A stretch of DNA of 64,000 bases from Bacteroidales bacterium (GTDB taxonomy: Bacteria; Bacteroidota; Bacteroidia; Bacteroidales; UBA932): NCBI GenBank assembly GCA_017427385.1, contig JAFRSW010000021.1, positions 62,001 to 126,000 of the forward strand. Direction: 5' to 3'. This document shows positions 2 through 57,943 of this stretch, piece after piece. A program made the translations under genes and the position numbers. The stretch's first letter is position 1. Every line of letters begins with the position of its first letter. The notes under the pieces were generated by a model. That model saw only the letters and a list, made by a program, of their open reading frames with translations. It did no database searches and was not told where the DNA came from.

Positions 2-1645
2 GACCTGGAGCGCGAGAAAGGCATCACCATCAAGAGCCACGCCATCCAGATGCAGTACAAGGGACATATCCTCAATCTCATCGACACCCCCGGCCACGTG
101 GACTTCAGCTATGAGGTCTCCCGCTCCATCGCTTCCTGCGAGGGCGCGCTGCTGGTGGTGGATGCCTCCCAGGGCGTGCAGGCGCAGACCATCGCCAACC
201 TATACCAGGCCATCGAACACGGGCTGGAGATCATCCCCATCCTGAACAAGATAGACATGGATTCCGCGCAGCCGGACGTGGTTGCCGACCAGATAGTGGA
301 CCTCATCGGCTGCGATCCGGACGAGATATTCCGCATCTCCGCCCGCACCGGCGAGGGCGTGCAGCCCATCCTGGACGCCATCATCGACCGCATCCCGGCC
401 CCGAAGGGGGATCCGGACGCGCCCCTGCAGGCCCTCATCTTCGACTCCGTCTTCAACCCCTTCCGCGGGGTGATCGCCTACTTCAAGATCAAGAACGGGA
501 TGCTGCGCAAGGGGCAGGCCATCAAGTTCTTCAACACCGGTCAGGACTATGTGGCGGAGGAGATAGGCATACTGCGGATGAAACTCGTGCCAACGGCGGA
601 GATCGGCTGCGGCGACGTGGGCTACATAATCTCCGGCATCAAGAGCGCAGCCGAGGTGAAGGTGGGCGATACCATCACCGGCAAGGAGAACCCCTGCAGC
701 GAGGCTATCGCCGGATTCGAGGAGGTGAAACCGATGGTGTTCGCGGGTATGTACCCTGTGCAGGCCGACAAGTTCGAAGAGCTGCGGGCGGTGCTGGAGA
801 AGTTCCAGCTGAACGACGCGTCCTTCGTGTACGAGCCGGAAAGCTCGCTGGCGCTGGGAAGCGGTTTCCGCTGTGGATTCCTGGGCCTGCTGCACCTGGA
901 GATAGTGCAGGAGCGGCTGTTCCGCGAGTTCGACATGGACGTAATCACCACGGTGCCGAACGTATCCTATAAGGTATATACCACGCAGGGGGAGGTGATG
1001 GATGTGCACAATCCGTCCGGCCTGCCCGCGCCTACGCTGATAGACCACATCGAGGAACCCTTCATCCGCGCTCAGATAATCTCCAAGGCCGAATTCTTCG
1101 GGCCGGTGATGAAGCTCTGCCTGGATAAGCGCGGCACCCTCGTGAGCCAGCATTATATTACTTCCGACAGGGTGGAGCTCAACTACGACATGCCGCTCTC
1201 GGAGATAGTGTTCGATTTCTACGACAAGCTGAAGAGCATCTCGAAGGGCTATGCCTCTTTCGACTATCATATTATAGGATACCGCTCCGCGCGGCTGGTC
1301 AAGCTGGATATCTTATTGAACGGCGAGCCGGCGGATGCACTTTCGACTTTGATACATGAAGACAATGCCTACGAGTTCGGGCGGAAGATGTGCGTGAAGT
1401 TGAAGGACCTGATCCCGCGCCAGCAGTTCGACATCCCCGTGCAGGCCGCCATCGGCGCCAAGATAATAGCCCGCGAGACGGTTAAGCAGGTGCGCAAGGA
1501 CGTGACTGCCAAGTGCTCCGGCGGCGACGTGACCCGTAAGCGCAAGCTGCTGGAGAAGCAGAAGGAGGGCAAGAAGCGCATGCGGCAGATAGGCAAGGTG
1601 CAGGTGCCCCAGAGCGCCTTCATGGCTGTTTTGAAACTTGATTAA
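2..1645 (+). CDS. lepA: Elongation factor 4 (LepA), 5'-truncated by window edge
   Basis: Ribosome-associated translational GTPase that back-translocates stalled ribosomes. The frame is already open at base 2 ([11 protein letters not shown], the switch I/G2 region), so the true start lies outside the window. Visible GTPase motifs are DTPGHVD (G3) and NKID (G4). These are followed by the EF-G-like domains, and the C-terminal LepA-specific domain is rich in Lys/Arg and ends [13 protein letters not shown], as is usual for the family. Length from the edge is about 547 residues, so only roughly the first 50 residues are missing. No frameshift is seen. The next gene, tatA, starts 33 bp downstream. 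Confidence 0.97.
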
Positions 1646-1678
1646 TTTTTAGAAGCCGGCCGGTCCGGCGAAACGGAT

Positions 1679-1882
1679 ATGAAGAATTTACTGTTGTTCC
1701 AGAATTTCGGTCTTTGGGAAGTACTGATCATCGCTTTCGTAGTGCTGCTTATTTTCGGTGGAAAGAAAATTCCCGAACTCATGAAGGGCCTCGGCAAGGG
1801 CGTGAAGAGTTTCAAGGACGGGATGAGCGAGGTCGAGAAAGAAATCAAGGATATCGACGACGAGGTCAAGCCCAAGGAATAA
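1679..1882 (+). CDS. tatA: Twin-arginine translocase subunit TatA
   Basis: Small 67-residue component that forms the export pore of the Tat system. One N-terminal membrane helix (about residues 11-26, [15 protein letters not shown]) is followed by the diagnostic [16 protein letters not shown] amphipathic hinge and helix, then a short acidic, Lys-rich tail. Its stop overlaps the tatC start by one base (TAATG), so the two are translationally coupled. No separate tatB is seen, as is common in Bacteroidetes, where a TatA-like protein probably serves both roles. Confidence 0.95.
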
Positions 1883-2646
1883 TGGGCGAAGAGATGTCCT
1901 TCTGGGATCATCTGGAGGCGCTCCGCTGGTGCCTTCTGCGGGTGGTCATCGCTTTCGTAATCGTGCTGGTGGGGTGCTTTATCGCCCTGCCGCATATTTT
2001 TGATGCGGTGATCCTGGGGCCCGCCCATGCGGATTTCTTCCTGTACCGCTGGCTGGGCTTCGTGTATGGCCCTGGGGAGGACGTCAACATCATCAATATC
2101 AACGTGGCGTCGCAGTTCATGACTCATATTTCCGTGAGCATGTGGATGGCGCTGCTGATCATTTTCCCCTACCTGATGTATCAGATCTGGGTGTTCGTGC
2201 GCCCGGCGCTGTACCAGCGCGAGGTGCCCGGAGTGCGCGGGGCGTTCCTCGGGGGCACTGGGCTGTTTTATATCGGCTGCCTGGTGGGATATGTGGTGGT
2301 ATTTCCCATCATCTTTAAGTTTCTGACATCCTACCGGGTGTCTTCCGATATCGTGAACCAGATATCGCTGAACAGCTACATGAGCACGCTGCTTTCGATG
2401 GTGTTCGTGATGGGGCTTGTGTTCGAGCTGCCGTCGCTGAGCTGGGTGCTGGGTAAGCTGGGAGTGGTTTCCCGGGAGATGCTGCGGGGCTGGAGGCGCT
2501 ATGCCGTGGTGGTGCTGCTGATTCTGGCGGCGCTCATCACCCCGACAGGGGATCCGTTCACGCTGTTCGTGGTGTTCCTGCCGCTGTATGGGCTGTATGA
2601 GTTGTCGATTGCGGTGGTGCCGCGCAGGGAGGTAGAGGATGAATAG
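1882..2646 (+). CDS. tatC: Twin-arginine translocase subunit TatC
   Basis: Multi-spanning inner-membrane receptor of the Tat export pathway, which recognises twin-arginine signal peptides. 254 residues with about six hydrophobic segments. The N-terminal MSFWDHLEALR matches the TatC signature (M.F..HL.ELR). The frame is open further upstream through tatA, but the ATG at 1882 is chosen because it gives the canonical N-terminus and overlaps the tatA stop by one base. The 3' end overlaps menA by 8 bp, so tatA-tatC-menA look co-transcribed. Confidence 0.95.
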   Translation: MGEEMSFWDHLEALRWCLLRVVIAFVIVLVGCFIALPHIFDAVILGPAHADFFLYRWLGFVYGPGEDVNIININVASQFMTHISVSMWMALLIIFPYLMYQIWVFVRPALYQREVPGVRGAFLGGTGLFYIGCLVGYVVVFPIIFKFLTSYRVSSDIVNQISLNSYMSTLLSMVFVMGLVFELPSLSWVLGKLGVVSREMLRGWRRYAVVVLLILAALITPTGDPFTLFVVFLPLYGLYELSIAVVPRREVEDE

Positions 2647-3526
2647 TTTTGGGGCGGCGGTGAAGTCGATGCGGCTGCGGACGTTGCCGCTGAGTCTGGC
2701 AGGGGTGCTGCTGGGATGCAAGCTGGCGCTTGCGGAGTGGCAGGTGAAGCCCCTGGTGGTGGTGCTGGTGTGCCTGACCACCGTCTGTCTGCAGATATTA
2801 TCCAATTTAAGTAACGAACTGGGCGATGTGCTCCGGGGGACTGACACCGATGAGCGCCAGGGTCCGGCCTATGGGCTGAATTCCGGTATGCTTACCGTGG
2901 AGCAGATGCGCCGGCTGATCCGGGCGTTCGTGGTGCTATGCTGCGTGTTCGGCGCTGCCATGATATGGGTCTCGTACGGCACCTTCTTCTGCTGGCCTTC
3001 TTTTGGTTTGTTGGTGCTGGGCGCCTGCGCCATCTGGGCCGCGATGCATTATACCCTGGGCCGCAATCCCTACGGTTACCGGGGGTTGGGGGATATCTTC
3101 GTATTCATCTTTTTCGGGCTGGTGAGCGTTATGGGCGCGTACTTCGTGTGTTGCCACCGGCTGGATTCCTGGGTGCTGGTGCTGCCCGCGGCGGGGATAG
3201 GGTTCTTCAGCGTTGGGGTGCTGAATATCAATAATATACGGGATATGAAGACGGATGCAGTGAACCGTGTGACGATGGCTTTGAGGATGGGGCTGCGTGG
3301 TGCGCGCATCTACCAGACCGCGCTGATTGTGTTGGGGTGGGTGGCGCTGGTTGCGTTCGCGGTGCTTGCAGTTTGCAATCGCTGGCCTGGAGGCTGGTGG
3401 TTCCTGCTGACCCTGCCCCTGTTCGTGATTCATCTTTATGGAGTCTGGACACGCACCGACCGCGATCTGGATCGGTTCTTCCCCCTGCTGGTTTTCGGAA
3501 CCTTCCTCCTGGCTATGGTTTACTAG
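2639..3526 (+). CDS. menA: 1,4-dihydroxy-2-naphthoate polyprenyltransferase MenA
   Basis: UbiA-family integral membrane prenyltransferase that attaches the polyprenyl tail to DHNA in menaquinone synthesis. 295 residues and about eight to nine membrane segments. The first Asp-rich motif region is NLSNELGDVLRGTDTDER, and a second lies at NNIRDMKTDAVN; both bind the prenyl diphosphate through Mg2+. It overlaps tatC by 8 bp. Its last 14 bases overlap the end of the convergent menG gene, so two menaquinone genes meet tail to tail here. Confidence 0.93.
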   Translation: MNSFGAAVKSMRLRTLPLSLAGVLLGCKLALAEWQVKPLVVVLVCLTTVCLQILSNLSNELGDVLRGTDTDERQGPAYGLNSGMLTVEQMRRLIRAFVVLCCVFGAAMIWVSYGTFFCWPSFGLLVLGACAIWAAMHYTLGRNPYGYRGLGDIFVFIFFGLVSVMGAYFVCCHRLDSWVLVLPAAGIGFFSVGVLNINNIRDMKTDAVNRVTMALRMGLRGARIYQTALIVLGWVALVAFAVLAVCNRWPGGWWFLLTLPLFVIHLYGVWTRTDRDLDRFFPLLVFGTFLLAMVY

Positions 3527-4199
3527 CCACATACAACCGGCAGATGCCGAAGTTGTAGGCCCGGTGCTTCACGTCCACAAACCCGCACCCCTTCAAAAAC
3601 TCGCACCACTCCTTCCGCCCCGGGAAAGCCTGCACCGAAGCCGGCAGATACCTATACGCATCAAAGTTGCCGGACATGCGCCCGCCGATCAGCGGCATCA
3701 CGCGTTTGAAATACCAATTATATAAATTGCGGACAGGCTTCCATCCCGGCACGCCCAGTTCCAGCATAACGAATTTTCCGCCCGGACGCAGCACCCGCAG
3801 GATCTCAGCCATGCAGGCGGAACGGTCCTCGAAATTCCGCACGCCGAACGCCACGGTTACATTATCGAAACTGCTTTCGCGGAAGCGAAGGGCAGCGCAG
3901 TCTCCCAGCTCGCAGGTGATGCGGCGTTCCAGCTTTTCGGCCTCCAGCTTGCGCCGCATCTCGGCCAGCATCCCCTCGGAAATATCTATCGCAACCACAC
4001 CGCAATGCCGCTTCTGGGCTATCGCGATGGCGAAATCCCCCGTGCCGCAGGCAACGTCCAGCACCTGCGGGCCGTCTATCCAGCGCAGAGCGCGGCGGCG
4101 CCACGAACGGTCTATCCCCAGGGAGGTCAAATGATTGAAATGATCGTATTCCGGAGCAATCGAATCGAACATCTCACGGATTTTTTCTTTTTCAGGCAT
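3513..4199 (-). CDS. menG: Demethylmenaquinone methyltransferase (MenG/UbiE)
   Basis: SAM-dependent C-methyltransferase for the last step of menaquinone synthesis. 228 residues from the chosen start. The class I SAM motif VLDVACGTGDF is at about residues 47-57, with UbiE signatures near the N-terminus (FDSIAPEYDHFNHL) and later VAFGVRNFED and RVLRPGGK. An upstream in-frame ATG at 4250 would add a hydrophobic 17-residue stretch that reads across the promoter element at 4219-4226, so the ATG at 4199 (MPEKEKIREMF) is preferred. It is convergent with menA and divergent from the DUF4886 gene. Confidence 0.93.
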   Translation of the reverse strand: MPEKEKIREMFDSIAPEYDHFNHLTSLGIDRSWRRRALRWIDGPQVLDVACGTGDFAIAIAQKRHCGVVAIDISEGMLAEMRRKLEAEKLERRITCELGDCAALRFRESSFDNVTVAFGVRNFEDRSACMAEILRVLRPGGKFVMLELGVPGWKPVRNLYNWYFKRVMPLIGGRMSGNFDAYRYLPASVQAFPGRKEWCEFLKGCGFVDVKHRAYNFGICRLYVASKP

Positions 4200-4233: not shown

Positions 4234-5127
4234 ATGAAAAGAATCCTCATTCTGCTCGCCGGGTTCGCCCTGGCTCTCGGCCTGAACGCACAGGAAAAAT
4301 ATCCTAACTATCCTCTCCCGGACCATCCGGACACCCTCCGCATCCTCGCCATCGGCAACAGCTTCTCGGACGATGCCACCCAGTACCTCCCGGACCTCCT
4401 GGAGGCCGCAGGCATCCACAACGTGATCGTCGGCCGCCTCTACATCGGCGGATGCACCCTGGAGCGCCACTGCCGCGAGTTCAAGGACAACGGCCACGAA
4501 TACGTCTACCTCAAATCCACCAACAACAAGTGGGAGACCATCAAGAAATACAAGCAGGGCTCCTTCATGGACGGTGTGGGAGATGAGCGCTGGGACATCA
4601 TCACCATGCAGCAGGGCTCGCCGAAGAGCGGCCGCTGGGACAGCTACGATCCCTGGCTGGGCACCCTCATCGATATCGTGCGCAAGAACTGCCCCAACCC
4701 CGAGGCCACCATCGTGTGGCATCAGACCTGGGCATACGCGAGCAGCTATACCAACCGCAACTTCGCCAACTACGCCTATGACCAGCAGTACATGTTCGAC
4801 AGCATCCAGATCTGCGTAGACAAGGCCCGGAAGGCATACAACATCCCCATCGTGATCCCCTCCGGCCCGGCAGTGCAGCTGATGCGCGGCACCTCGCTCA
4901 AGACCGAGAAGGAACTCACCCGCGACGGCTTCCACATGGACTATAAGTACGGCCGCTACCTGACTGCGTGCGTGTGGTTCGAGAGCCTCATCAAGCCCGT
5001 GTTCGGCGTGAGCGTGAAGGGCAACAGCTTCCGCAATGCCGGCACCGACAACGAGGTGACCGACAAGGAGGCTGCGCTGATGCAGAAGGTGGCCGTCAAG
5101 GCCGTGAAGGCGCAGGCAAAACGATAA
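4234..5127 (+). CDS. DUF4886 SGNH-hydrolase-like secreted protein
   Basis: Exported protein of 297 residues. A Sec signal peptide (about residues 1-19, MKRILILLAGFALALGLNA) precedes IGNSFSDDA near residue 45, which matches the SGNH block I GxSxS nucleophile region. A C-terminal DGFHMDYKYGRYL supplies the Asp-x-x-His pair of block V. Together these suggest an esterase or hydrolase acting on a carbohydrate or peptide ester outside the cytoplasm. Family DUF4886 is frequent in gut Bacteroidales; the substrate is unknown. The transketolase genes begin 15 bp downstream. Confidence 0.75.
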   Translation: MKRILILLAGFALALGLNAQEKYPNYPLPDHPDTLRILAIGNSFSDDATQYLPDLLEAAGIHNVIVGRLYIGGCTLERHCREFKDNGHEYVYLKSTNNKWETIKKYKQGSFMDGVGDERWDIITMQQGSPKSGRWDSYDPWLGTLIDIVRKNCPNPEATIVWHQTWAYASSYTNRNFANYAYDQQYMFDSIQICVDKARKAYNIPIVIPSGPAVQLMRGTSLKTEKELTRDGFHMDYKYGRYLTACVWFESLIKPVFGVSVKGNSFRNAGTDNEVTDKEAALMQKVAVKAVKAQAKR

Positions 5128-43944: not shown

Positions 43945-44019
43945 GAGGGTTTAGCTCAGTTGGTTTAGAGCGCTTGCTTGACAGGCAAGAGGTCACTGGT
44001 TCAAATCCAGTAATCCTCA
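43945..44019 (+). tRNA. tRNA-Val (anticodon GAC)
   Basis: Acceptor GAGGGTT/AATCCTC with one G-T pair; anticodon stem CTTGC/GCAAG, loop TTGACAG, anticodon GAC at 43980-43982; T-arm with GGTTCAAATCC; discriminator A at 44019. The 3' CCA is not encoded (CAA follows), in contrast to the tRNA-Pro gene. Confidence 0.96.
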
Positions 44020-44026
44020 CAACACG

Positions 44027-44051: not shown

Positions 44052-44153
44052 GTACCGCCTTCCGGCCTTCCCTTTCTTCCCCCGGCCTTTCTTCCCCTTC
44101 CCCCTTGCCAGGCCCCTTCCTCTGTCGCCCGCCGGGCCCCTTCCCCTGTCGCG

Positions 44154-44291
44154 ACCTTCCCCATTTCCGGCCATTTTTGGGGAAGGTACCACCCTTTCTC
44201 CATCCACCTTCCCCAATAAAGCCGTATATTGGGGAAGGTTACGGATTTTTGCCCTGCACCTTCCCCAAATGTTGGCAAAAACGGGGAAGGT
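44154..44291. repeat. 52-bp-phased palindrome array A (three elements)
   Basis: Three 34-bp elements, each ACCTTCCCC, 16-nt loop, GGGGAAGGT. Left arms start at 44154, 44206 and 44258 (steps of exactly 52), right arms at 44179, 44231 and 44283. The second element has a longer 13-bp stem. Between elements are 18-nt spacers that differ. The array sits just past the stop codon of the RAYT gene. A C/T-rich low-complexity stretch (44053-44150) precedes it. Confidence 0.93.
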
Positions 44292-44304
44292 CACGCCTCA
44301 ATTC

Positions 44305-45177
44305 CTAGATAATAAGTTTCAATTCATCTGGATTCAGGTGCAGAATACGGGCGAGTTGCTTGGATCGGCAATCAAATTGCTTCGAGAGACGTTTTGCAAT
44401 TGCGACCCTCTCCAACGCACTGCATTCTTCGATGCTCCTTTTGGCAAAAAACTCTTCCGCAAAGGCAACCGCCTTGCTCTTAATCTCCCCATCAGCTATC
44501 GAAGGCGCCCCTTCCATCATCTCCTGTTCCGTCTCTTTATCGACATTGCTATTATTCAGTGAATACATGTACTTCCCAACAGAGTTGAATATTTGTTCTG
44601 CAGCCTTAAAGGCCGTATAGTGTCCCGGCCAGATCAGATTGTCCGGACCTACCATCCAATTATCGGGAAGCAACTGACGCGTATATGCTATCCTTCTTTT
44701 ATGTTTCATTGCCAGATTTTCCGTGTCACGCTCCCCAAAAATGCTTTTTTTATTTCCTGCAAACATGATTGAAGTTGAAGACCATCTGTATGCTGCCGGG
44801 TGTAATCCCATGCCGGCGGCAACGGGATTGCGAAGAACATAGGCAATCTTGTCTGCCAGTTTTTCGACAGGAATAAACCAATGGCCGATAATGGGGGTTT
44901 CGATAAGGGGGGTGCCGCGATGCTCGGTAACCCACATCGCCGTTAACTTTTTGTACCTGAAAACGAATCGATAACAATCTTCAAGTCGTCCGTACAGGAT
45001 AAAATGCCAGTGATTGTCCATAAGGCAAAACGCAAGAATAATCACGGGTCTGTTTTCTCGCTTACATAATAGCCAGCAGACTGCAATCCGGTTCATCCCG
45101 GCAATGAATTCTTCTTCGCTGGCAAACATGATTTCGCTCTCGAAACCTTTGCTGCAAAAGTGATAATGTTTTTTCAT
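44305..45177 (-). CDS. REP-associated tyrosine transposase (RAYT, Y1_Tnp family)
   Basis: 290 residues. HUH single-strand endonuclease fold: FCLMDNHWHFIL carries the metal-binding HxH (His56, His58), and KIAYVLRNPVAAGM carries the catalytic Tyr113 with the NPV.AG signature of RAYTs; AYRWSS follows. The C-terminal part (about 230-290) is an extra helical region, possibly a DNA-binding HTH. The ATG at 45177 is preferred to one at 45225, which overlaps the promoter element. Palindrome arrays lie on both sides, as expected for a RAYT and its REP-like substrates. No IS ends are seen, so it is probably not self-mobile. Confidence 0.88.
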   Translation of the reverse strand: MKKHYHFCSKGFESEIMFASEEEFIAGMNRIAVCWLLCKRENRPVIILAFCLMDNHWHFILYGRLEDCYRFVFRYKKLTAMWVTEHRGTPLIETPIIGHWFIPVEKLADKIAYVLRNPVAAGMGLHPAAYRWSSTSIMFAGNKKSIFGERDTENLAMKHKRRIAYTRQLLPDNWMVGPDNLIWPGHYTAFKAAEQIFNSVGKYMYSLNNSNVDKETEQEMMEGAPSIADGEIKSKAVAFAEEFFAKRSIEECSALERVAIAKRLSKQFDCRSKQLARILHLNPDELKLII

Positions 45178-45222
45178 TCCGGCAAAATTGTATGAAGGAT
45201 TGAAAAATCCAAATAATCGTGG

Positions 45223-45230
45223 CAAACATA
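45223..45230 (-). promoter_or_regulatory. -7 promoter element for RAYT gene
   Basis: Minus-strand TATGTTTG, perfect TAnnTTTG, giving a leader of about 45 nt to the ATG at 45177. It decides against the upstream start. Confidence 0.6.
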
Positions 45231-45283
45231 TACGAAAATTTATGTTTGCGGGGGTTCCAGGAGTTTTTACCTACTATTGTTAC

Positions 45284-45476
45284 CTACAACCTTCCCCGTT
45301 ATCAAAAAACGGGGAAGGTTGTAGCGGCAAAATGCAGGACCTTCCCCGAAATCATGAAGAATTGGGGAAGGTGTCGGGGTAAAACCACCGACCTTCCCCG
45401 AAATCATGAAGAATTGGGGAAGGTGTCGGGGTAAAACCACCGACCTTCCCCAAAAAAGGCTAATAACAGGGAAGGT
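45284..45476. repeat. 52-bp-phased palindrome array B (four elements)
   Basis: Left arms at 45289, 45339, 45391 and 45443; right arms at 45311, 45364, 45416 and 45468. The first element has a perfect 17-bp stem (45284-45300 with 45308-45324) and a shorter loop. Elements two and three are identical 52-bp tandem units including the spacer GTCGGGGTAAAACCACCG. The fourth right arm has one mismatch (AGGGAAGGT). The gap 45178-45520 between genes holds this array, the RAYT promoter and nothing else apparent. Confidence 0.93.
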
Positions 45477-45520
45477 CGCAGAAAGTATTAGTAAGACGTC
45501 GGAAGGTCGCAGGAAGGAAA

Positions 45521-46663
45521 CTAATAGTAGTTTCGGGAACCAGAATAAATATCAATTCCCAAACCGAAGTTTACGGAAACAATCATACCCAGATCGCTGT
45601 GATTCTCGCCGCAAACGAAGATCTTACCATAAAGGCCAAGATCCGAATATTCTGTATAGTTTTTGTTGTAATATTTCAGGAACCTTAAGTATTTGAGTCT
45701 GAAATCGGTCCCGACGCTGATAGAAAAGCCCTTGTCTGCTTTTGGCCGATCATCTCCGCTCACGACATCACTGTTAATAAGATTCAAGTTGCTGCCCCCT
45801 AAAATAAAGTACGGCTGGATGTCCCACCATGCGGTTTCTTTAATCTTTCGCGCCAGACCTATGCCCCAGCTTGTCATTTCCGTGTGGGTTCCGGAAGGCC
45901 AATTGTAGGATAAATAGTTGACCGGAGAAGTTGTTTTTCCGAAACGGCAGGATAAATCGAACAATAAGACGTTTTTCTTAACGGGAAAAGCCAACCCGAA
46001 ATTGAAAGCGGTTGGGGTGGAAAAAGCAAACGGTGAGGTGTCGGTAAGGAAGACCGATTGCAACACACTCATGTACAAACCTATTCCCCCTTCATATTCG
46101 CCAATAACGGGAACGTGTTCAGTAGTTGTTGTCTGATCAAGCAGTTCCTTTACCTTCAGTTCGTAGGGAACCAGGAAATCCAGTCTGTTGCCACAGTCGC
46201 TTTCTGCCCGGATTTCATCTATCATGGCATTCCTACTTCGCTTGTAAAAGTCAATAGAATCAGAAACTGCGTCGCGAGGGGCAGTGTTTATCGCGTTCTG
46301 GATTCTGCGCGAATAAAGCTCCATCACATCAAAAATTACCTGGGTATATCTTAGATTGTCATCTGTAAAATATTCTGGGACCATCCAGGAACTGGATCTT
46401 GAGAAAATGGTTTTGATATCAATAGTGGAATATCTAAGATTGCCCGATTTCTTTTTGGTGTAATCAGATTCCGCTCCCATATAAAAATCGAAATACTCAC
46501 CGTTCTTGTCGGGATTCTTTCTGGTACGGAAGTCCTCCCGGTTCAAAGGCCGTTCACCCCAGTGCAGGAACTCTTTATCAGCAGGAACGCCCATTAAATC
46601 CACTTGTGCAAAAGCATTGGCAGAAATGATCAGAAAGAGGAAAAGGCAGCGTATCGATTTCAT
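45521..46663 (-). CDS. Secreted protein of unknown function within the repeat island
   Basis: 380 residues with a clear signal peptide (about 1-20, MKSIRCLFLFLIISANAFAQ). The N-terminal half is charged and partly helical; the C-terminal 180 residues alternate hydrophobic and polar residues (for example FNFGLAFPVKKNVLLFDL, WGIGLARKIKETAWWDI), as in a small outer-membrane beta-barrel, and end NYY. No family recognised. It lies between arrays B and C, in the same orientation as the RAYT, with its own promoter. Confidence 0.7.
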   Translation of the reverse strand: MKSIRCLFLFLIISANAFAQVDLMGVPADKEFLHWGERPLNREDFRTRKNPDKNGEYFDFYMGAESDYTKKKSGNLRYSTIDIKTIFSRSSSWMVPEYFTDDNLRYTQVIFDVMELYSRRIQNAINTAPRDAVSDSIDFYKRSRNAMIDEIRAESDCGNRLDFLVPYELKVKELLDQTTTTEHVPVIGEYEGGIGLYMSVLQSVFLTDTSPFAFSTPTAFNFGLAFPVKKNVLLFDLSCRFGKTTSPVNYLSYNWPSGTHTEMTSWGIGLARKIKETAWWDIQPYFILGGSNLNLINSDVVSGDDRPKADKGFSISVGTDFRLKYLRFLKYYNKNYTEYSDLGLYGKIFVCGENHSDLGMIVSVNFGLGIDIYSGSRNYY

Positions 46664-46679
46664 GGATTAAGCATTTTTA

Positions 46680-46687
46680 CAAATATA
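46680..46687 (-). promoter_or_regulatory. -7 promoter element for the 380-residue protein
   Basis: Minus-strand TATATTTG, perfect TAnnTTTG, 16 nt before the ATG. The sequence upstream of it is array C. Confidence 0.6.
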
Positions 46688-46706
46688 GGAAAAAACTCGT
46701 ATTGTG

Positions 46707-46792
46707 ACCTTCCCCGAAAAACGGCGAAATCGGGGAAGGTCCTACCTTGAAACCCGGCACCTTCCCCAATACAGGGCGAAAACGGGGAAGGT
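46707..46792. repeat. 52-bp-phased palindrome array C (two elements)
   Basis: Two 34-bp elements with arms ACCTTCCCC/GGGGAAGGT, left arms at 46707 and 46759 (exactly 52 apart), right arms at 46732 and 46784, both with 16-nt loops and an 18-nt spacer. The array sits upstream of the unknown secreted-protein gene and of the divergent efflux operon. Confidence 0.93.
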
Positions 46793-57355: not shown

Positions 57356-57943
57356 ATGTTCAACAGAGCAGGAGTATCCCCAATTGCCTCTGCTGCACGC
57401 TGCCTTGTTTCGGCAATTCTGCTGGTTATGGCCGTGGCGTGCAGCCGGCCGGGGTCGTGGGAGCAGTTCGTGCGGGTCGAGGATGCGCCTGGCGGGGTGT
57501 ATGAATTTGTCATTCCGTCTTCATCTGTCATTCCGAGCGAAGCGAAGGAATCTACTTTCAACCTGACATTCTACACCTCCCCCCTTGACGAACCCCTGCA
57601 GCTGGAAGTCACCTGGCTTTATTCTCCCGGCGACATCCTTCTGACTGAAACCGTCTGGTTCCCCGCCGGGGATCACCGCGCCCTCTACCGCAGCGGCATA
57701 CGCTTTTCGGCTGACCTGTCGGGAAATACCCCAAAATCTCTACAGGTACCCCCTAAAAACCCCCTACCTGTAGAGAATATTGCGGAAATCTCTACAGGTA
57801 CCCCCAAAAACACCCCTACCTGTATAGAAAATGGGGAAAAACTCTACAGGTCCGCTGTAACAATCCAAGTTACCCCAATCAACCCGCCGGAGGATTTCAG
57901 GGGGCTGGGAATAATCTGCAAGACAAACGATGGGACACGGTAA
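57356..57943 (+). CDS. gldH: GldH-like lipoprotein carrying repeat insertions
   Basis: 195 residues. Lipobox AVAC (Cys29) in a signal peptide with a long N-terminal extension, then a GldH-like beta domain (LTFYTSPLDEPLQLEVTWLYSPGD, quoted in part; SGIRFSADLSG). GldH is needed for gliding or type IX secretion in motile relatives, and here the assignment rests on the holB-ricT-gldH order plus weak similarity. Two kinds of repeat DNA lie inside the frame: a hairpin repeat at 57527-57555 and a palindrome array at 57737-57851. The frame stays open through both, making the protein longer than usual (about 150-160). Confidence 0.68.
   Translation: MFNRAGVSPIASAARCLVSAILLVMAVACSRPGSWEQFVRVEDAPGGVYEFVIPSSSVIPSEAKESTFNLTFYTSPLDEPLQLEVTWLYSPGDILLTETVWFPAGDHRALYRSGIRFSADLSGNTPKSLQVPPKNPLPVENIAEISTGTPKNTPTCIENGEKLYRSAVTIQVTPINPPEDFRGLGIICKTNDGTR
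57527..57555 (+). repeat. Dispersed hairpin repeat, copy 2 (inside gldH)
   Basis: 29-bp match to 14951-14979 with the stem pair changed from T-A to C-G (ATTCC/GGAAT, 57530-57534 with 57547-57551). It is translated here as roughly VIPSEAKEST within gldH. Confidence 0.8.
57737..57851. repeat. Second 52-bp-phased palindrome array, inside gldH
   Basis: Element one: TCTCTACAGGTA (57737-57748), 16-nt C-rich loop, TACCTGTAGAGA (57765-57776). Element two: same left arm at 57789-57800, 16-nt loop, right arm TACCTGTATAGA at 57817-57828 (one mismatch). A third left half-arm CTCTACAGGT occurs at 57842-57851, again 52 bp on. Because 52 is not a multiple of 3, successive units are read in different frames, yet no stop arises. 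Confidence 0.92.

Follow-up and report, generated by a model that had tools for sequence, protein, structure and literature searches.

Palindrome arrays around RAYT-like transposase genes of gut Bacteroidales keep a strict and probably helical spacing

The stretch of DNA analyzed, referred to as the window, comprises 64,000 nucleotides of contig C20 (JAFRSW010000021.1) from a Bacteroidales bacterium, a metagenome-assembled genome (MAG) of 1.93 Mb that is 78% complete and consists of 22 contigs. Between positions 44154 and 46792 the window holds nine palindromes, ACCTTCC...GGAAGGT, in three arrays that bracket a second gene and a gene for a Y1 (HUH) transposase resembling the RAYTs, the domesticated tyrosine transposases associated with repetitive extragenic palindromes (REPs). 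This arrangement had been described in a first-pass annotation and was found again here. The features of the locus are as follows.

44154 to 44291, no strand assigned: array A, three palindromes of 34 bp (44154-44187, 44206-44239 and 44258-44291) at steps of 52 and 52 bp.
44305 to 45177, minus strand: RAYT-like Y1 (HUH) transposase gene, 290 amino acids, with an N-H-W-H motif and with Y113 and N117 of a Y---NP motif.
45289 to 45476, no strand assigned: array B, four palindromes (31, 34, 34 and 34 bp) starting at 45289, 45339, 45391 and 45443, at steps of 50, 52 and 52 bp.
45521 to 46663, minus strand: possible passenger gene, 380 amino acids, between arrays B and C, with no Pfam or NCBIfam match.
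46707 to 46792, no strand assigned: array C, two palindromes of 34 bp starting at 46707 and 46759, at a step of 52 bp.

A recount gave the geometry that had been annotated, with eight of the nine palindromes spanning 34 bp around a 16-nt centre (the ninth, at 45289, spans 31 bp) and five of the six within-array steps measuring 52 bp, the sixth being 50 bp. The palindrome at 45443 has a mismatch in its right arm (AGGGAAGGT), and the two units of array B said to be identical over 52 bp, those starting at 45339 and 45391, share the same sequence throughout. The claim that geometry rather than sequence is conserved held for the fixed spacing but not entirely for the centres, which are A/T-rich and many of which share GGC/GCC. 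The RAYT gene lies between arrays A and B, its stop codon 13 bp from the end of array A. An imperfect GC-rich 24-bp tandem repeat (44091-44152), following a tRNA-Val gene (43945-44020), abuts array A.

The product of the RAYT gene matches the NCBIfam model NF047646 (REP_Tyr_transpos) with an E value of 4.9e-6 and 26.5 bits, which does not reach the curated cut-off of 80, and Pfam Y1_Tnp with an E value of 0.028. The HUH motif and the Y---NP catalytic tyrosine motif of RAYT/TnpAREP (class 2 Y1) are both present. In a set of 28 proteins comprising the window RAYT and its relatives, 26 match NF047646 at E up to 0.1 (best, 7.5e-11) and 26 match Y1_Tnp at the same limit. Residues H56, H58 and Y113 are invariant in both alignments made (28 and 33 sequences), and N117 is invariant in the smaller and nearly so in the larger. 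About 155 amino acids lie C-terminal to the REP_Tyr_transpos match, the last 70 of which have weak helix-turn-helix (HTH)-like matches (HTH_23, Sigma70_r4_2 and HTH_29 in 2 of 26 members each; best E, 0.0033); PDB profile searches returned nothing firm. Among named relatives, the nearest are gut MAGs of Bacteroidales; the label Candidatus Cryptobacteroides is attached to 4 of 80 loci. Five RAYT matches, counting the window gene, are present in the host genome, the best paralogue being 45% identical and one match being broken by stops. A RAYT relic with three stops lies left of the window (C20:54098-54490).

Across the whole host genome, 13 palindromes with the 8-bp window arms were identified, and the reversed control pattern gave none. 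Away from the gene these arms form two arrays, of three and two palindromes: one at C4:38631/38683 (step, 52 bp), with a degenerate third copy 52 bp further on, and a pair at C20:61383/61434 (step, 51 bp). The latter pair (C20:61383-61467) is situated about 7 kb beyond the RAYT relic and just left of the window. Random spacing of copies across the genome had been named as an observation that would refute fixed phasing; the copies keep 51 to 52 bp. The window arm pattern was detected in 6 of 119 relatives and the reversed control pattern in 2 of 119. Only G045, whose four copies form two 51-bp pairs, and perhaps G040, with two longer palindromes (45 to 46 bp), look like members of the window family; G057, G063, G084 and G106 have a single match each. 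Two further RAYT paralogues of the host genome are accompanied by other arms, spaced at 52 and 51 bp, and one such arm family also occurs in the window.

57738 to 57851, no strand assigned: second 52-bp array, five arms of the unrelated type CTCTACAGGT/ACCTGTAGAG.

This array is an element of the RAYT paralogue on contig C3 (45% identical to the window RAYT), not of the window RAYT. Copies of CTCTACAGGT/ACCTGTAGAG were found on C1, C7, C17 (52 bp) and C20 (52 bp, the array inside the window).

RAYT relatives were identified by profile in 278 of the 398 host-family genomes (14 of 25 genera) and by single-protein search in 61 of 120 relatives. The survey, which was confined to the host family and its near relatives (Candidatus Cryptobacteroides-like gut MAGs), took in first 122 loci and later 258 that contain a RAYT frame; filtering to less than 90% identity left 217 genes. 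Repeated palindromes were sought de novo up to 900 bp from each gene, and 125 of the 217 RAYT genes proved to have a family of their own nearby; among shuffles the count was 1 of 217, and among far-flank control regions it was 8 of 158. Six of these eight positive controls have steps of 51, 52, 83 or 84 bp only (of the other two, one has 391 bp and one has 162 and 87 bp); some of the control regions therefore probably contain dispersed elements themselves. Most families have arms unrelated to those of the others, and their palindromes also vary in span.

Neighbouring copies within 130 bp were present in 86 of the 125 families, and each of these was assigned a single value, its commonest step. 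Before correction the steps were 50 bp (1 family), 51 (27), 52 (30), 53 (4), 54 (1), 61 (1), 72 (7), 73 (4), 74 (1), 75 (1), 83 (1), 84 (1), 85 (2) and 87 (1), with outlying values of 42 (1), 102 (1) and 104 (2). Separate classes at 42, 102 and 104 bp were dropped when the sequences were re-read as 51- to 52-bp arrays: L302, L045 and L324 have steps of 52 bp, and L106 has steps of 51 bp with a degenerate middle copy. After these four families had been moved by eye, the final counts were 67 families at 50 to 54 bp (class 5), 1 at 61 bp, 13 at 72 to 75 bp and 5 at 83 to 87 bp, values that correspond to roughly five, six, seven and eight helical turns. The phasing annotated at the window locus is real but not peculiar to that locus: many related systems obey such a rule, at one or another of several discrete values. 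Long arrays were seen in L131 (2317-4766; 18 palindromes, mostly at 74 bp with two steps of 96) and L130 (14 palindromes at 53 bp), both of which extend on both sides of the RAYT gene.

The evidence that the distance is strictly kept is good. Among the 63 families in class 5 before correction, the standard deviation of the step is 0.70 despite palindrome spans of 17 to 44 bp, and permuting the gaps gave values of at least 6.25. That the allowed values correspond to whole helical turns is supported by moderate evidence. The fewest class changes required on the tree were 8 after correction and 12 before, and neighbouring members of the tree can lie one class apart, as L037 (61 to 62 bp) does from L074 and L077 (72 to 73 bp), and L139 (83 bp) from L121 (75 bp). 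When 11 lineage values picked by hand from the tree were tested for phase at a period of 10.45 bp, Rayleigh R was 0.73 (P = 0.0014), and the V test for integer turns gave 1.4e-4; these figures supersede an earlier test of 12 values that included 42 (P = 4e-4). Overall, many related loci hold a REPIN/RAYT variant whose spacing rule is strict and probably helical.

Dispersal of palindromes with their spacing was examined in a second arm family, CCCAATGG/CCATTGGG, for which 45 genomes were searched, 7 chosen for a RAYT of that group and 38 others. Six of the chosen genomes, which by choice have these arms beside the RAYT, carry 15, 11, 7, 5, 2 and 2 exact-arm palindromes, counting those adjacent to the RAYT. 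In G231, the seventh, the arms are variant and no exact CCCAATGG/CCATTGGG palindrome occurs. The presence of elements in genomes lacking a RAYT had also been proposed as a check, and outside the RAYT group a single copy was found, in 1 of the 38 genomes. Taken with the spacing of the genome-wide copies, the proposed checks for the most part favour the first-pass annotation. In 16 fetched regions, with pairs directly beside a RAYT excluded and one mismatch per arm allowed, all 18 complete dispersed copies were pairs, 15 at 51 bp and 3 at 52 bp, some of these being the same site in two related species; a nineteenth copy was cut by a contig end. Their loops are 13 or 14 nt long and differ in sequence. 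In this family the dispersed unit is a pair of inverted sites, as in REPINs, and a RAYT gene flanked by cognate palindromes with copies elsewhere, as in REPtrons, was likewise found.

The pairs have a common anatomy. In the 63 class 5 families, GGC or GCC lies within 4 bp of a point 24 to 26 bp from the palindrome centre in 34 to 41 families, compared with 4 to 18 for the remaining even offsets listed; GGCC falls exactly at the pair midpoint in 22 of the 63, and A/T content is maximal about 5 bp on either side of that midpoint. The matching place in the window family is the 16-nt "loop", where GGC/GCC occurs in 6 of the nine centres (15 of 23 when relatives are included), those at 45289, 45339 and 45391 being without it. 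Therefore, the counterpart of the hairpin of other families may be GGGGAAGGT-N18-ACCTTCCCC, and the 16-nt "loop" would then be a linker between hairpins. The palindromes annotated in the first pass are real, but the unit they define is ambiguous; if GGGGAAGGT-N18-ACCTTCCCC is the hairpin, the array ends would fall in half hairpins. Calculated folding energies were -13.7 kcal/mol (z, -4.46) for the 52-nt stretch with GGGGAAGGT-N18-ACCTTCCCC and -9.5 kcal/mol (z, -4.34) for the 34-nt palindrome. Just 3 of the 86 families have the GT[AG]G foot of the canonical REP in at least half of their copies (controls, 0.054 per copy), a rarity that rules out identity with the canonical GTAG REP; in the window, the word occurs within 8 nt of 2 of the nine palindromes.

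Two comparators were examined for the same rule. In seven 50-kb stretches of Escherichia coli K-12, 53 half-sites matching the REP consensus gave 25 neighbour distances, which were 29 (1), 32 (4), 33 (2), 53 (1) and 54 (5) bp in one orientation and 57 (1), 59 (7) and 66 (4) bp in the other. At 30 canonical Bacteroidota RAYT loci (best matches), palindromes were detected at 13, compared with 1 of 30 shuffles, most having one on each side; apart from a 51-bp array at one locus, L340, the distances were 108, 132 to 133, 155 and 169 bp. A spacing rule general for RAYTs was rejected, as neither comparator shows it, and the rule is therefore typical of the long-tailed clade studied rather than of RAYTs in general.

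Several described systems resemble the arrays in part. Like the REPINs and bacterial interspersed mosaic elements (BIMEs) treated in the parts consulted of Bertels and Rainey 2011 (PMC3116915), they consist of inverted-site pairs around a spacer, dispersed as pairs, with a cognate RAYT and preferred spacings, those in Pseudomonas fluorescens SBW25 being 71 and 110 bp. Unlike REPINs and BIMEs, they have a GTAG/GTGG foot in hardly any family, an A-tract/GGC(C) centre, a few spacing values about one helical turn apart across many arm families, and a low copy number (2 to 15 exact-arm copies in the six CCCAATGG/CCATTGGG genomes). Bacteroidetes RAYTs with "atypical secondary structures" form subclass 2.6, equivalent to Bertels group 5 (Quentin 2018, PMC6006769), and agree in phylum, in atypical palindromes beside the gene and in copies elsewhere in the genome. 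That subclass has a median length of 179 amino acids and YIH[QN]NP, whereas the window RAYT has 290 amino acids and YVLRNP, and the parts of the account covered give no spacing rule. The first-pass annotation knew of no Bacteroidales system with such fixed phasing. Since subclass 2.6 is in print, the association of RAYT and palindromes is as such not new, while helical phasing of such pairs was not named in the literature found (open-access PubMed Central, seen in part).

According to the sections of Quentin 2018 (PMC6006769) covered, subclass 2.1 (group 1/TIRYT) comprises long, HTH-tailed RAYTs for which no REP-like sequences were found, and the repeats of TIRtrons occur in dimers or clusters (Di Nocera 2013, PMC3733652, likewise in part). 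The likeness lies in a long class 2 protein with a C-terminal extension and in flanking repeats, some self-complementary, in dimers or clusters; the TIR motif GGGGWSAS, however, is not matched by GGGGAAGGT, and the portions of PMC3733652 covered state no spacing rule. The HUH Y1 core and end hairpins also recall IS200/IS605. Movement of that kind was rejected, as the paralogues are few and divergent (45% identity at best) and the window RAYT has the same neighbours in another species.

The interpretation we favor, at about even chances, is that the arrays are REPIN-like nonautonomous elements of the RAYT that they flank, with paired sites whole turns apart that would be bound as duplex DNA by a RAYT dimer. 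It starts from what was computed: cognate arms, fixed spacing, dispersal of pairs (in one arm family), a difference in copy number between species, and RAYT synteny. Neighbour distances at about whole turns of DNA suggest that the enzyme may read its sites on double-stranded DNA. Each RAYT group has its own arm sequence, and the working unit would be a pair of inverted-repeat (hairpin-forming) sites around an A-tract/GGC(C)/A-tract linker, the distance between their centres being a constant number of helical turns, five in this case and about six, seven or eight in other lineages. We infer a RAYT dimer, duplex synapsis, nicking, and roles for the tail and the centre. Aided by the long C-terminal tail, the dimer would bind both sites on one face of the duplex (or cruciform), and a bendable centre would allow them to come together; at the feet of the hairpins the HUH/Tyr domain would nick and join strands and so copy the pair to another place, and arrays would lengthen through duplication of whole units.

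It is possible, though doubtful, that the spacing is inherited and not selected, an ancestral pair of about 52 bp having been copied as a block and tandemly duplicated while the arms drifted with the RAYT. Unit duplication is seen in the identical 52-bp units of the window and the similar 53- or 74-bp units of L130 and L131, left and right pairs around one RAYT are often copies of each other, and one class holds 67 of the 86 families. Inheritance does not sit easily with a step that varies so little while palindrome spans differ between families, or with 1- to 2-bp variation (50, 51 and 53 bp) being tolerated when none of the 86 families has a half-turn value. Adjacent classes, moreover, lie about one turn apart even between neighbours on the tree, such as L037 and the pair L074 and L077.

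Less probable is a constraint on a single-stranded DNA or RNA fold, either two hairpins with a fixed linker, as for E. coli TnpAREP, or one long REPIN hairpin. Three array stretches do fold well as single-stranded DNA (z, -6.45, -9.11 and -3.38), and TnpAREP was assayed on single strands (PMC8266576, in the parts covered); such a fold, however, needs a fixed linker and not a fixed centre-to-centre distance that counts loops of family-variable length, and it does not predict classes near 52, 62, 73 and 84 bp. We regard it as very unlikely that the arrays serve regulation or DNA architecture (as operators, terminators, or sites for nucleoid proteins or gyrase) with only a secondary relation to the RAYT. 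The A/T-rich flanks of the pair centre and the host-factor roles that the literature, as far as covered, names for BIMEs would suit such sites, but the arms track the RAYT group, as the counts in the six chosen and 38 other CCCAATGG/CCATTGGG genomes indicate, and pairs stand at unrelated loci. An assembly artefact is scarcely credible and chance is refuted: the source is an incomplete MAG in 22 contigs, but the reversed pattern is absent from it, shuffles yielded a family in 1 of 217 cases, and the same arms and steps recur in another MAG (L158).

A number of results weigh against the duplex-pair interpretation. No palindrome family was found near 92 of the 217 RAYT genes, and in 39 of the 125 families the copies are always more than 130 bp apart. 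Odd steps remain (96 in L131, 158 in L037, 156 and 165 in L075). The tree used for class changes and for picking lineages was a quick one, and without the 52-bp lineages the phase test has eight values and P = 0.02. A free fit of the class means gave an increment of 11.05 bp between classes (offset, -3.9), and not exact multiples of 10.45; in vivo operator spacing has known periods near 11 bp, but a fit near 11 bp would suit RNA helix geometry as well, so the period does not exclude an RNA helix. The E. coli REP distances in the second orientation are not of one phase. The tail is linked to HTH domains by weak profile matches, and the 51-bp array of canonical locus L340 accompanies a 203-amino-acid frame without a long tail, which speaks against the tail as cause. 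In addition, published TnpAREP work, as far as PMC8266576 was covered, uses single-stranded substrates. At L075, which is outside the 86 families, steps of 165, 156 and 165 bp (4247-4766) beside the RAYT fit no simple class.

A broader proposal can be advanced only tentatively: that a large HUH/Y1 clade recognizes paired duplex sites on one helix face, whole turns apart around a bendable A-tract centre, with arms replaceable if the phase is kept, and that the pairs bracket and shift passengers such as a two-gene ATP-binding cassette (ABC) transporter and the 380-amino-acid gene of the window. If so, a duplex synapse would be needed for Y1 RAYT transposition, which is held to proceed on single strands. 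Element families whose arms are unrelated but whose spacings take only a few allowed values form a natural series for asking whether an HUH enzyme works on duplex pairs, and the spacing is a sequence-independent signature for finding such elements where the arm sequence is not known.

The history of the window locus was examined by comparison with L158, a buffalo MAG of another species, in which a RAYT 63% identical to that of the window is accompanied by the same arms at 52-bp steps. Its neighbours, judged by eye, are those seen in the window, lgt on one side and tolC with a resistance-nodulation-division (RND) adaptor on the other; it has arrays of 3 and 2 palindromes compared with 3, 4 and 2 in the window, and the 380-amino-acid gene is missing from this syntenic locus. 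From the shared neighbours, the RAYT gene therefore appears to have been inherited in place while arrays and passenger vary.

Matches to the 380-amino-acid gene were found in 13 of 249 genomes, the host genome included. A profile of this gene run over the fetched RAYT and array loci (L024-L327 and L337-L382) detected the window copy only, which speaks against its being a passenger. Three of the 14 loci with homologues have a palindrome family: L386 has 72-bp pairs on both sides of the homologue (1333-3929) and no RAYT hit, L392 has a single 72-bp pair and a weak RAYT match nearby, and the family at L391 is unphased. At L393 a RAYT match adjoins the homologue. The frame at L386 is 774 amino acids long, and its C-terminal part resembles the window gene.

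Pairs also enclose the two-gene ABC cassette. In G286 the cassette lies between pairs beside the RAYT, whereas in G241 and G170 it lies between pairs at a different genomic site, their RAYT loci lacking the cassette and being otherwise collinear with that of G286. One pair is present in G241 and G170 and absent from G347 and G152, but the filler differs and the exact target site is not readable; the pair on the opposite side of that site is present in all four. These arrangements are only suggestive of pairs that bracket and shift genes, since ordinary recombination between repeats could do likewise. A palindrome family is present at 6 of 25 ABC-gene loci, taking the form of phased pairs at four (L398, L399 and L400 at 51 bp and L406 at 73 bp) but not at the other two (L404 and L419); L401 and L402, if two mismatches per arm are tolerated, each show a single pair to one side. 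The two-gene ABC transporter cassette enclosed by phased pairs, at two different sites in related species, was observed in L270 (3883-5164), L376 (908-2077) and L379.

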